Translations under genes and position numbers: made by a program
Notes under the pieces: generated by a model
Told to the model about the DNA's origin: nothing
Databases searched by the model: none
Seen by the model: the letters and a program-made list of their open reading frames with translations, nothing else
Shown here: piece by piece, positions 9,387 to 34,678 of the stretch
Layout of the letters: every line of letters begins with the position of its first letter
Position numbering within the stretch: the first letter of the stretch is position 1
From: an uncultured Bacteroidales bacterium
GTDB lineage: Bacteria; Bacteroidota; Bacteroidia; Bacteroidales; P3
Reading direction: 5' to 3'
NCBI GenBank assembly: GCA_905236645.1
Contig: CAJOMZ010000010.1
Span: 1 to 41,856 of the forward strand
Length of the DNA: 41,856 nucleotides

Positions 9387-9503
9387 ACCAACACCGCTCG
9401 TTGTCCAGTCGTTGTCCAGTTGTTGTCCAGTTGTTGTCCAGTCATTGACTGGACAACCACTGGACAACAACTGGACAACGACTGGACAACGAGCGGTGTT
9501 GGT
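9387..9503. repeat. 117-bp near-perfect palindrome, 4 + 4 inverted 11-bp units (YGTTGTCCAGT)
   Basis: Left units 9399-9442, right units 9448-9491, outer arms accaacaccgct/agcggtgttggt; one mismatch (9432/9458) in 58-bp arms. Confidence 0.95.
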
Positions 9504-24614: not shown

Positions 24615-26690
24615 ATGGCGAAAAAAAGTATTATTCCCGGCAAGGCGGATTCCTATAACTGGACGTTTGCCTCAATCGGCGGGGTTACCCGCGTGACTAT
24701 CAATTCGGGCGAGGATATCGCCCACCTTGGCGAGTTGGACCAGAAGCTGTGGACTGTGCTCAGCTGCCCGGTCAAAGGGCTTGAGTTTGACGCGGAGACG
24801 CTTCGCCTGATGGATACCGACAACGACGGCAAGATACGTGTCAACGAGGTCGTTGCCGCCTCACAGTGGCTTTGCGGCGCGCTCAAGAACCCCGACCGCA
24901 TCCTTGACGGCGCCGACCGCATAGCGCTGGCCGACCTGAGCGAGGGCGACGACGGCGCCGCCTTGTGCAGCGCGGCACAGCGCATACTGCAGCGCAAGGG
25001 TGTCGAGGCCGCCGAGATTTCAATGGCCGAAGTCGCCGAGGCCAAGGCTGCCTTCGACGAGAAGGTGAAGGCCAAGGACGACACGACCGCAGCCATCGTC
25101 GACGAACGGCCCTACGGCGACAACACCGACGACGCCATCGCCGCCGTCGGCGCACTGAAAGAGAAAGTGGCCGACTACTTTATGCGCTGCAAGCTTATCG
25201 CCTTCGACGAGAACTGTGCCGAGGCCGTAGACGTGTCGGTAGAGAAGATACAGTCTATCAGCGAGATGAACCTGGCTACGTGCAGCGACAAGATTGCCGA
25301 CTATCCGCTGGCCCGCCCCAACAAGGAGATGCGCCTCACGATGGGCACAGGCATCAACCCGGCCTGGCAGGGAGCCTTCGACAAGGCTAAGACTCTGGCT
25401 CTCGCTGTCGACTATCCCGAGGCCGACAGCATCGACGAGGCACAGTGGAACGCCGTCTGCGCCAAGCTGGACGCCTACGTTGCAAGTCTGGCCGACGACA
25501 AGAGCGCCAAGGTGGAGAACTTCGACAAGGAGACCGCAGAAGAGGATGCCGACATCAAACTGGTCGACAAGTTCCTGCATCTGTACCGCGACTTCTACAA
25601 GTTGCTGAAGAACTATGTCACCTTCAGCGACTTCTATACGCGCGACAAGAGCAAGCTGGCCGTGTTCCAGTGCGGCAAGCTCTATATCGACCAGCGCTGC
25701 TTGGACCTCTGCGTCCGCGTGGAAGATATGGGCAAACAGACCGAATCGGCAAGCTTCAGCGGCCTGTTTCTGGTCTACTGCCACTGCAAGTCGAAAGTCA
25801 AGGCCGCCGAGATGGATATCGTGGCCGCTATGACCGACGGCGATGTCGAGGACCTGCGCGTGGGCAAGAACGCCGTGTTCTACGACCGCTCGGGCCAGGA
25901 CTGGGACGCCACCGTGACCAAGATTGTCGACAACCCCATCAGTGTGCGCCAGGCATTCTGGGCGCCCTACAAGAAACTGTGGAAGTTCATCACCGACAAG
26001 ATCAACAAGAACGCCGCCGAGAAGGAGGCCAAGCAGATGGACAACCTGACCGCCAAGGCCGACACCGCCACCAACAACATAGGCACCGTTCCACCAGCCG
26101 AAGACGCTGCAGCTCCCGCCGCCGACGCCGCCAAGAAGACGCCGTTCGACATAGCCAAATTTGCAGGCATCTTTGCCGCTATCGGCTTGGCTTTGGGAGC
26201 CCTGGCCGCCGCACTCGCCGGGCTGGGGGCTTTCCTCACGGCCAGATGGTACAATATCATCTTGTTGCTTGCCATCATAATCATCGTCATTTCGGGTCCG
26301 TCGATGTTCATCGCCTGGACCAAGCTGCGCCGCCGCAATCTGGGCCCCGTGCTCAACGCCAACGGCTGGGCTATCAACGCCCAGGTGCGCATCAACACCG
26401 CCTTTGGCGCCACGCTGACCAGCCTGGCCAAGTATCCGCTGGTAACGGTGCCCGACCCCTATGCCGACAAGAAAATGGCCTGGTGGAAGAAATGCCTCAT
26501 TTGGCTCGTCGTTCTCGGTGGCATCTTCTGCGCCCTCTATTTCACCAACACGCTGAAGTATGTGGGCCTGCCATTCAAGAAAGAGGTGCCTGAAGTTGTC
26601 CAGGAGCAACCTGCCGGACAGCCCGCCGAGGCCGCAGCCGCACCTGCCGCCGAAGCCCCCGTTGCCGAAGAACAGGCGCCGGCAGAGTGA
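24615..26690 (+). CDS. Membrane protein with EF-hand-like motif and C-terminal TM helices, function unknown
   Basis: DTDNDGKIRVNEVVAASQWL matches an EF-hand loop; hydrophobic segments about aa 520-575 and 625-645; Ala/Pro-rich tail. Confidence 0.7.
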   Translation: MAKKSIIPGKADSYNWTFASIGGVTRVTINSGEDIAHLGELDQKLWTVLSCPVKGLEFDAETLRLMDTDNDGKIRVNEVVAASQWLCGALKNPDRILDGADRIALADLSEGDDGAALCSAAQRILQRKGVEAAEISMAEVAEAKAAFDEKVKAKDDTTAAIVDERPYGDNTDDAIAAVGALKEKVADYFMRCKLIAFDENCAEAVDVSVEKIQSISEMNLATCSDKIADYPLARPNKEMRLTMGTGINPAWQGAFDKAKTLALAVDYPEADSIDEAQWNAVCAKLDAYVASLADDKSAKVENFDKETAEEDADIKLVDKFLHLYRDFYKLLKNYVTFSDFYTRDKSKLAVFQCGKLYIDQRCLDLCVRVEDMGKQTESASFSGLFLVYCHCKSKVKAAEMDIVAAMTDGDVEDLRVGKNAVFYDRSGQDWDATVTKIVDNPISVRQAFWAPYKKLWKFITDKINKNAAEKEAKQMDNLTAKADTATNNIGTVPPAEDAAAPAADAAKKTPFDIAKFAGIFAAIGLALGALAAALAGLGAFLTARWYNIILLLAIIIIVISGPSMFIAWTKLRRRNLGPVLNANGWAINAQVRINTAFGATLTSLAKYPLVTVPDPYADKKMAWWKKCLIWLVVLGGIFCALYFTNTLKYVGLPFKKEVPEVVQEQPAGQPAEAAAAPAAEAPVAEEQAPAE

Positions 26691-26783: not shown

Positions 26784-29543
26784 ATGTCATCATTTGCAGA
26801 AATGTCATCGTGGGCGTGGCTGATACAGCTGTTTGTCATTATCGCCGCCCTGCTTGTAGCCAACCTTATCCGTTGCAATGTGCCTCTGTTCCGCCGCAGC
26901 CTGCTGCCGTCGGCGCTGTTGGCCGGCCTTCTAATACTGTGCCTCAAGCCGTTGGATTTCTTCAACGAGTTTGTCGACCGCCACGTGATGGAGATAATAA
27001 CCTATCACGCCTTGGGTCTGGGCTTTGTGGCTATGGCTCTTAAGAACAAGAAAATCAAGAGTTCCACCACCACAATGAAGGTCGTTGAGACCGGGGCTGT
27101 AACCGCCAGCACCTACATTATCCAGGGCTTGGCGGGACTGCTTATCACCATTCCGATGTTTATGTGGTGGAAAGGCTCCGATATGTTCTATGCCGGAGGC
27201 TTGCTGCTGCCTATGGGCTACGGCCAGGGACCCGGACAGGCGCTGAACTTCGGTGTGACGTTCAGCGACTGGTCGTCAAACCAGGGTATCACCTTCTACG
27301 GCAAGGACTTCGGCCTCAGCATCGCCGCTATGGGTTTCATTGTGGGCAGCCTTGTCGGAGTGTTTTATATGAACATCCTTCGTCGCAAAGGCAAACTGAA
27401 GGTGAGCGACGGCACATACGTTGAGAAACACACGCTTGAGGACTACGAGTCGGAAGGCGAGATACCGCATTCGGAATCAATCGACAAGATGACTGTCCAG
27501 CTGTGCTTGGTGCTGATGGTATACGGCTTCGTGTTCCTGCTGATGTTCGGCGTCCAGCAGCTCGAGCTCGGCACCTTTGGCGAAAAGACACTCAAGCCGT
27601 TAGTGTGGGGCTTCAACTTCCTGTGGGGTACGCTGTTCGGTGTGCTGGCGAAGTGGATTATAGGCTGTCTGCGCAGGAGCAACCTGATGCAGCGCGAGTA
27701 TATCAACAACTATACGCTCGACCGCATTGCCGGCACCTGCTTTGACTTTATGATTGTTGCCGGCACCGCCGCCATCGACTTCCAGAACCTGCGCGCCATC
27801 TGGCTGCCGTTGGTGCTGGTCTGCACGCTGGGTGCCATTGTGACCTTCTGGTATGTGCTGCGCTGCTGCCGCAAGCTTTACCCCGACTACACATACGAGG
27901 CCTTCTTCTCAATGTTCGGTATGCTGACCGGCACGGCCTCGAACGGTATGATTCTGCTGCGCGAGATAGACCCACGCTTCGAGACGCCGGCAGCCAACAA
28001 CCTGGTGCTGCAGACCATTCCGGCGCTGGTTTTCGGCTTCCCGGTACTGCTGCTGATGGGCTACGCTCCGCAGAGCCTGACCAGCACGTTCATTACCGTA
28101 GGTATTATGATTGTCGCTCTTGCCATATTCGCCCTCTTCATCTTCCGCAAGCCCAAAAAGCGGAAATCGGCGAGCGGAAAGCGGAAAGCCGCTGGTGTGG
28201 CAGTGTTGGCGCTGCTGCTTGCCACGTCCGCTACCGTTTCGGCGCAGGACACCACAAAGCACGTCCGCACGGGCTGGAGCTTCGGTGTTCTGCCCAGCGT
28301 GGCCTTCGACGCCGACCTGGGCTTCCAGTACGGCGCGTTGACCAACATCTACTACTTCGGCGACGGCTCGACCTATCCAGAATACCTGCATTCGTTCTAT
28401 GCCGAAGCAGCCTACACCACCAAGCATTTCGGCATCTTCCGCACGTCGTATGACTCGAAGTACCTGATTCCCAACCATCGCCTGAGTGTGGACCTGACCT
28501 ATCTGCCCGACCAGATGTGCGACTTCTACGGCTTCAACGGCTACCAGTCGAACTATAACGCAGCCTACTCGAACCAGGACGAGGCAGCCTACATCACACG
28601 CGCATACTACAAATACCGCCGCGACCTGTTCCGCTTCAGCGCCGACCTGCAGGGTGAAATCCACAAACCGTGGTACTGGAACGCCGGTATCGGCCTGCTG
28701 CACTTCGGCGTGGGGCCTGTCGATGTCGACCGCCTCAACAAGTTCACCAAGGACGAGGACAAACTGCTGCCCGACACAACGACCCTCTTCGACCGCTATG
28801 TGGCACAGGGCTACATCAAGCCCGGCGAAGCCACAGGCGGCGCCCATCCCTATCTGCACGCCGGCGTGACGTTCGACACGCGCGACCGCCAGCAGAACCC
28901 GCACCGCGGCATCCACGCCGACGCATTCCTGACCTACTATGCCGGCATCGGCTCGATGAGCGATTATAACAACGTGAAGCTCAACGCCGCCTGGCGCCAC
29001 TACCTGCCCATCGTCGAGAATCGTCTGACGCTGGCCTACCGCATCGGCACGCAACTGACGCTGGCCGGCGACTGCCCCTTCTACCTCAACACCTACCTCA
29101 ACCAGCTCTATATGCAGCGCGTGGTGTATGAGGGATTGGGCGGTGCCAACTCAGTGCGCGGCATTATGCGCAACCGCATCCTGGCTCCCGGCGTGGCCTT
29201 CGCCAACCTTGAGCTGCGCACCCAGCTGTTCTCGTTCAAGGTGGGCAAAAATATGTTCTACATCGGACTGAACCCCTTCGTCGATGCCGGTATGGTGGTG
29301 CAGCCGTACGATGATGTCGTCACCGACCCGATTCTGTATGAACAGGCAGACCCGGCCCAGAACGACCCGACACCGTTTGTTGACGACAGCCGTCTCTATG
29401 CCCCCCACCTGTCGGGCGGCTGCGGCCTGAAGGCAGCTATGAACGACAACTTCGTGCTCAGCATTGACTGGGCCACCGCCTTCGACAAGCAGGACAACGG
29501 CAAAATGAGCAACCTCTACATCAAGATGGGATATATGTTCTGA
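26784..29543 (+). CDS. Fusion: GltS-like sodium/glutamate symporter domain + internal signal peptide + Omp85-like outer-membrane barrel
   Basis: 919 aa single frame; GYGQGPGQALNFG and TGTASNGMILLREIDP (GltS-like); RKPKKRKSASGKRKAAGVAVLALLLATSATVSAQDTT; GGANSVRGIMRNRILAPGVAFANLELRTQ; terminal ...IKMGYMF. Confidence 0.85.
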   Translation: MSSFAEMSSWAWLIQLFVIIAALLVANLIRCNVPLFRRSLLPSALLAGLLILCLKPLDFFNEFVDRHVMEIITYHALGLGFVAMALKNKKIKSSTTTMKVVETGAVTASTYIIQGLAGLLITIPMFMWWKGSDMFYAGGLLLPMGYGQGPGQALNFGVTFSDWSSNQGITFYGKDFGLSIAAMGFIVGSLVGVFYMNILRRKGKLKVSDGTYVEKHTLEDYESEGEIPHSESIDKMTVQLCLVLMVYGFVFLLMFGVQQLELGTFGEKTLKPLVWGFNFLWGTLFGVLAKWIIGCLRRSNLMQREYINNYTLDRIAGTCFDFMIVAGTAAIDFQNLRAIWLPLVLVCTLGAIVTFWYVLRCCRKLYPDYTYEAFFSMFGMLTGTASNGMILLREIDPRFETPAANNLVLQTIPALVFGFPVLLLMGYAPQSLTSTFITVGIMIVALAIFALFIFRKPKKRKSASGKRKAAGVAVLALLLATSATVSAQDTTKHVRTGWSFGVLPSVAFDADLGFQYGALTNIYYFGDGSTYPEYLHSFYAEAAYTTKHFGIFRTSYDSKYLIPNHRLSVDLTYLPDQMCDFYGFNGYQSNYNAAYSNQDEAAYITRAYYKYRRDLFRFSADLQGEIHKPWYWNAGIGLLHFGVGPVDVDRLNKFTKDEDKLLPDTTTLFDRYVAQGYIKPGEATGGAHPYLHAGVTFDTRDRQQNPHRGIHADAFLTYYAGIGSMSDYNNVKLNAAWRHYLPIVENRLTLAYRIGTQLTLAGDCPFYLNTYLNQLYMQRVVYEGLGGANSVRGIMRNRILAPGVAFANLELRTQLFSFKVGKNMFYIGLNPFVDAGMVVQPYDDVVTDPILYEQADPAQNDPTPFVDDSRLYAPHLSGGCGLKAAMNDNFVLSIDWATAFDKQDNGKMSNLYIKMGYMF

Positions 29544-29821: not shown

Positions 29822-29926
29822 ACCAACTCCGGTCGTTGTACAATATATGTACAATACTTGTACAATATATGTACAATTGGTAAACGTACAAATATTGTAC
29901 AAGTATTGTACATATATTGAGTTGGT
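29822..29926. repeat. Large palindrome of 11-bp units (NTGTACAATAN)
   Basis: 4 left units 29836-29879, 3 right units 29885-29917; 33-bp arms 29842-29874/29886-29918 with one mismatch; outer arms accaactc/gagttggt. Confidence 0.93.
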
Positions 29927-34544: not shown

Positions 34545-34678
34545 TTTACCCCCCGTCCGAGAGCCACCCTCCTGCCCCGTTCTTATATTGTTTTATATTG
34601 TTCTTATATCGTTCTTATATTCCAAATATAAGAACGATATAAGAACGGGGCTACCAGGTGGCAGGGAAGGGGGTGAAA
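34545..34678. repeat. Palindrome with 11-bp units (YGTTCTTATAT), 4 left and 2 right
   Basis: Left units 34578-34620 (one is 10 bp), right units 34626-34647; outer arms gccacc/ggtggc and gcccc/ggggc. Confidence 0.9.

Follow-up and report, generated by a model that had tools for sequence, protein, structure and literature searches.

In the rhizobium Bradyrhizobium japonicum, the single gene fbcH encodes a cytochrome b/c1 precursor that is matured by signal peptidase. The gene described here resembles fbcH in that a second protein comes after a polytopic inner-membrane protein, with an internal signal sequence between them, although maturation is in our case a proposal. Furthermore, both fbcH products reside in one inner-membrane complex, whereas the second protein here is an outer-membrane barrel, and relatives of the symporter-barrel gene keep separate genes. 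Transporters of the GltS family are also known to be coupled to, or fused with, a neighbouring exported protein, as in the TAXI-GltS systems (PMC12344293). The arrangement is alike in that a transporter of GltS-family type occurs both coupled and fused to its exported neighbour, but in TAXI-GltS the neighbour is a periplasmic binding protein and a functional partner of the transporter (PMC12344293), whereas the partner here is an outer-membrane barrel known only as a gene neighbour or fusion. In the open-licence literature searched, we found no account of the symporter-barrel fusion or of the RCGGARA repeat family discussed below.

The fused open reading frame occupies positions 26784–29543 (+) of the window, the 41,856-nt stretch of DNA analysed here, and runs from ATG to TGA through 919 residues with zero internal stops; a genome search found it once, again free of stops. 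The original prediction of an in-frame fusion between a symporter-like inner-membrane protein and an Omp85-type barrel, joined via an internal signal peptide, is supported by the present analysis, and its suggestion of a polyprotein that signal peptidase cuts is likewise favoured as the most likely reading; the fusion is conserved in four more species. The coordinates, the basic linker, the signal-like stretch and the C-terminal MGYMF are all borne out in the sequence. The locus would be a natural, conserved single gene with two products destined for two different membranes, and caution is warranted because gene callers annotate such products as one protein.

The two halves were folded separately; an alignment of the whole chain looked misaligned. 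For the transporter half (aa 1–455; 26784–28148, +), the AF2 model is of moderate confidence (pLDDT 71), and all 18 PDB matches to it at E≤0.001 are CitS (TM 0.33–0.52), with Na+/H+ antiporters as the next matches. Eleven TM helices and two re-entrant hairpins are counted in the model, in agreement with the CPA-reentrant fold, in which two such hairpins lie in inverted repeats; GltS and CitS (2HCT) both belong to the CPA-reentrant transporters (PMC8396727). The two-hairpin fold is shared with this group (PMC8396727), to which the best PDB match also belongs, but the window protein differs in lacking a profile match: no Pfam or NCBIfam transporter family is found even at E≤10, and PF03616, which is matched by 3 of 12 wider transporter homologues (best 1.8e-6), does not match it. 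Searches of the PDB with phmmer gave no matches for either half. The description of the transporter as GltS-like is thus sound with regard to fold, but does not extend to membership of a Pfam or NCBIfam family. The loop charges (20 K+R inside versus 6 outside) speak for an N-out/C-in topology. Helix number and orientation also set the protein apart, with 11 helices N-out/C-in compared with 10 N-out in Glt_symporter and 11 N-in in 2HCT. Since Glt_symporter is listed with ten helices and an outside N-terminus, the extra last helix in the window protein would place its tail in the cytoplasm.

The barrel half (mature form aa 488–919; 28245–29540, +) was originally assigned as an Omp85-like outer-membrane barrel, and this is supported by scores above the cut-off for PF01103 (45 bits, cut-off 24) and NF047779 (312 bits, curated cut-off 200), as well as by the AF2 model (pLDDT 80), which has 16 strands, no preceding domain, and ends with the aromatic MGYMF. 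The best PDB matches of this model are the BamA and TamA barrels. Identification as BamA itself was rejected, as TIGR03303 scores 27.8 bits against a cut-off of 297, and no POTRA domain is present by sequence or model. The 16 strands, the C-terminal aromatic residue and the NF047779 match are those of a POTRA-less Omp85 protein, and a 'noNterm' subfamily of Omp85 has been described in which the barrel carries neither POTRA nor any other N-terminal domain (PMC4104836). Unlike these proteins (PMC4104836), the barrel here is attached to a transporter, while its orthologues in most congeners are stand-alone; a stand-alone barrel is present in other families of the order as well.

Between the two halves, residues 456–487 read KPKKRKSASGKRKAAGVAVLALLLATSATVSA and are followed by QDTT. 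A basic linker (aa 456–469; 28149–28190, +) with seven K+R and no D+E would form both the cytoplasmic tail and the n-region of an internal signal peptide. It is followed by the h-region AGVAVLALLLA (aa 470–480; 28191–28223, +), with a mean Kyte-Doolittle hydropathy of 2.76, and by a predicted signal peptidase I site at A487/Q488 (VSA/QD; 28242–28247, +), assigned from the −3 and −1 residues and the SAQD motif. The five known fusions agree in these features: the n-region contains six or seven K/R, the mean hydropathy of the h-region is 2.6–3.0, position −3 is A or V, position −1 is A, and QD comes next. The SAQD cleavage motif is also found in unfused orthologues, which have ordinary N-terminal signal peptides. 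A tail on the cytoplasmic side and an A-x-A-type site, as expected of an internal signal peptide, are thus both predicted. With an N-out/C-in arrangement of 11 helices and hence a cytoplasmic tail, the basic n-region and the hydrophobic stretch behind it can act as a signal. According to AF2, the first barrel strand is at aa 498, about ten residues past the cleavage site, so that release would be needed for the barrel to reach the outer membrane. Because of the signal features, the topology and the short spacer, cleavage by signal peptidase I is the best reading of the junction. Overall, we consider it likely that a repeat joined two genes, that the repeat array supplied the n-region, and that signal peptidase I releases the barrel at A487/Q488.

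In the proposed pathway, the single chain would be inserted co-translationally, and the eleventh helix of the symporter would leave the tail in the cytoplasm, from where the next hydrophobic stretch would enter Sec as a signal sequence. Following cleavage at A487/Q488 by signal peptidase I, the freed barrel would proceed to BAM and the outer membrane, and the symporter would remain in the inner membrane with a 32-residue basic tail plus signal-peptide remnant. The original prediction had also offered a two-membrane conduit, that is, an uncut chain acting as a conduit or tether across both membranes, for which the single continuous frame can be cited. The periplasm is roughly 20 nm wide, however, and in the model the ten or so residues between the signal sequence and the first strand would span a few nanometres at most. 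All five fusions, moreover, have a good cleavage motif, and in sister species the same role is filled by split genes. We therefore regard such a conduit as exceedingly improbable.

The main rival to cleavage is separate translation of the barrel, starting at a GTG or TTG codon within the h-region (28197–28208), whether or not the long product is made as well. At least one GTG or TTG is present in this stretch in every fusion, and the unfused genes lie close together or overlap (gap −4 to +163 nt) in the manner of a coupled operon. On the other hand, there is no start codon common to all five fusions; the aligned codons are GTG/GTG/TTG in the window, GTC/GTG/TTG in L051, GTG/GTG/CTG in L053, and GTG/ATA/TTG in L050. 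A product initiated here would be without the basic n-region, although six or seven K/R are kept upstream in frame, and the preceding 30 nt are 40% AT compared with 63–80% in three unfused relatives. Internal initiation would not require an in-frame linker either, yet the linker stays in frame. This explanation is consequently judged unlikely, and signal peptidase I cleavage of one chain is retained as the preferred reading.

The same fusion is present in four other species-level assemblies, namely L050 (RUG13410, 916 aa), L051 (Tb.RUG.238, 912 aa), L053 (UBA3724, 924 aa) and L139 (G342, 912 aa). The first three were found fused among the closest relatives and correspond to G392, G339 and G335, respectively, by matching contig coordinates; G342 is the fifth fusion and came from a search of 120 congeners. 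The carriers of the symporter-barrel fusion are a small group of rumen bacteria. Transporter identity to the window among the fused relatives is 86–93%, and the linker, counted between the last FRK and the cleavage site, measures 31, 31, 31, 35 or 41 residues in the five fusions, with linker indels that are always multiples of three. Pairwise comparison of four fused sequences gave dN/dS ratios of 0.03–0.12 in the transporter and 0.07–0.10 in the barrel, values that indicate purifying selection on both halves in the fused forms. The low ratios and the exclusively in-frame indels show that the frame and both products have been kept. Since every genome was assembled from metagenomic data, and contigs frequently terminate at heptamer arrays, an assembly or binning artefact was considered, as was a decaying gene. 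Assembly error is ruled out by the four further fused genomes, and with five separate assemblies from different studies in agreement, with sequences that have diverged, and with low dN/dS, the wider explanation by artefact or decay has a negligible probability.

In about 50 other congeners, the transporter and barrel genes are adjacent and separate, and in a few they are unlinked. A first survey covered 13 congeners with adjacent separate genes at gaps of −4 to +141 nt, where a stop codon closes the transporter behind a short basic tail and the barrel starts from a separate ATG with a signal peptide of its own; in G003, G005 and G011 the two genes were on different contigs. In the wider set of unfused pairs, the gap reaches 163 nt, with a single case of 863 nt, and all three possible frames of the barrel with respect to the transporter occur. 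Two separate genes in relatives had been named at the outset as evidence against a true fusion, and this arrangement is indeed that of most relatives, but the artefact that it might have implied is excluded by conservation of the fusion in four further species. Within the flank covered, no such barrel accompanies the transporter homologues (39–63% identity) of other Bacteroidales and of Clostridia. Two additional loci should be mentioned. G351 was tried as a frameshifted fusion and rejected, the transporter being followed by an ordinary stop. G035 is a possible sixth fusion, with a transporter of 90% identity on a contig that stops inside the transporter.

A feature of the junction that the original prediction overlooked is that the linker is a member of a genome-wide heptanucleotide repeat family. 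TRF places a period-7 array with the unit AAAGCGG inside the linker (28157–28189, +; 4.7 copies, 76% matches), which makes the window array short and degenerate. Arrays of GCGGAAA, ACGGAGA and their mixtures are stop-free in six frames, and the translation is identical across the forward frames, AESGKRK or TENGERR, so that a GCGGAAA array is rich in Lys and Arg. The genome of the window has 288 matches to (RCGGARA)3 21-mers, compared with 0 for the reversed control. Such matches occur in 33 of 120 congeners, only about a dozen of which are rich in them, and in the order as a whole 4 of 295 genomes have any match. The repeat-rich species include G000, G342, G357, G335, G391 and G392. The genomes of all five fusions are heptamer-rich (71–451 matches). 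Among adjacent pairs with a visible junction, listed by hand from the congener search and the repeat counts, five of eight are fused in rich genomes and none of 53 in poor ones (Fisher p 9e-6, with relatedness ignored). L053 lacks the strict 14-mer, and a repeat origin of its junction is suggested by the common linker core.

In the proposed origin, an (RCGGARA)n array would have replaced the stop codon of the transporter and the start codon of the barrel, and its stop-free, Lys/Arg-rich translation would have given both an open linker and the positively charged n-region of the barrel signal peptide. We count in favour of this reading, together with release by signal peptidase I, the SAQD motif of the unfused orthologues, the occurrence of fusions only where the repeat is rich, and the in-frame inserts in RsgA and NqrF described below. 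A heptamer array that is free of stops and whose translation serves as a signal-peptide n-region would represent a simple route to gene fusion, testable in other repeat-rich genomes. As seven is not divisible by three, gain or loss of one unit would shift the barrel out of frame, and long, near-perfect heptamer arrays are found elsewhere in the genome of the window, which together raise the prospect of phase variation. Against such switching, the arrays at the junction are degenerate and short, only a few of their perfect units stand next to each other, and the in-frame state is found in all five species; we hold it to be very unlikely.

Sampling of arrays inside genes, by region of the genome, showed that the junction is one of several coding locations in the window's genome. 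In-frame arrays are present in genes whose names, read from the sequence, are RsgA (twice; L174:2037-3242), DnaG (L177:1667-3742), PolA (L175:2-1297), a P-type metal ATPase (L176:281-2515), NqrA (L182:1232-2605), NqrF (L182:5666-7024), a GH3 enzyme (L184:1608-2561) and a YgiQ-like radical SAM protein (L186:4159-5991), with coordinates in the order listed; a XerD-like recombinase and TerC, likewise named from sequence, carry arrays at their C-termini. Alignment of RsgA and NqrF with relatives shows that the inserts in these conserved genes are absent from repeat-poor congeners; one NqrF insert is common to G339, G342 and G392. Given these in-frame inserts in other genes, the junction array belongs to a repeat family that is demonstrably within coding sequence.

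Comparable elements are known from other bacteria. Rickettsia palindromic elements are palindromes of about 150 bp that lie in frame within unrelated core genes (PMC10969869). They are alike in being in-frame repeats in core genes that yield translational fusions, but the heptamer is repeated directly, with a unit of 7 nt and a variable number of copies, a few of which form inverted pairs in the genome, and here it would have merged two genes. The TAACTGA repeats are direct, genome-wide heptamers of patchy distribution and mostly intergenic (PMC4679880); the heptamer arrays described here are likewise direct, genome-wide and patchy, but TAACTGA has a stop in the forward frames, whereas RCGGARA has none in any. 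It is conceivable, if still short of an even chance, that the (RCGGARA)n arrays are a spreading family, able to enter coding sequence because they lack stops in all six frames and on one strand invariably code for a basic, hydrophilic peptide. In this clade the family would place linkers into RsgA, DnaG, PolA, NqrA and NqrF and create new polyproteins at stop/start junctions, which signal peptidase would resolve.

Some arrays occur as inverted pairs around a similar spacer of about 20 nt, TTGACGCG(T/G)CGGCC / GCAGCC, as at L182:6530-6610 in NqrF and L184:2175-2253 in GH3. In L173 (compare 130-160), TGACGCGTCAGC directly follows the array. The inverted pairs possibly represent a composite or mobile version of the repeat.

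With respect to the history of the fusion, DNA trees interleave the fused sequences with the unfused L052, L054, L143 and, above all, L142, and for both halves monophyly of the fused sequences is rejected by the AU test. Earlier ten-row trees, made before later genomes were added, were weaker (transporter p 0.14) and are superseded. Because of the AU rejection, a single gain is tenable only with splits or recombination, and repeated fusion is the alternative. The linker core KRK(A/T)AGVAVL, common to four of the five fusions, argues for one origin. In both trees, L142 (G358:C45) clusters with L053 and L139. Its two genes are separated by 863 nt that contain a small lipoprotein-like ORF, and its barrel starts from a separate ATG with a signal peptide of its own, yet retains ASAQDTAKHVR. 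Apparently, L142 is a fusion that has been split again. Between L050 and L051, identity falls from 96–97% to about 75% inside the barrel, while the transporters are 92–99% identical, which suggests recombination within the fused gene. From these sequence comparisons, we read the history as probably one gain followed by splitting and recombination, although more than one fusion event is possible. The occurrence of fused and split forms side by side in the trees fits equal mature products, and the unfused close relatives together with the one apparently re-split locus provide a before-and-after series for the origin and tolerance of a bacterial fusion gene.

Upstream of the fused gene in the window, a 691-aa ORF (24615–26690) has no Pfam or NCBIfam family match, and its orthologue in G342 (L139:6715-8808) carries an in-frame ERKAESGERKAEDVV heptamer insert that is absent from the window copy. 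The window also contains 11-nt tandem arrays at 9398–9492, 29836–29919 and 34579–34647, unrelated in sequence to the heptamer, some of which are inverted neighbours, with TCGTTGTCCAG followed by GACTGGACAAC.
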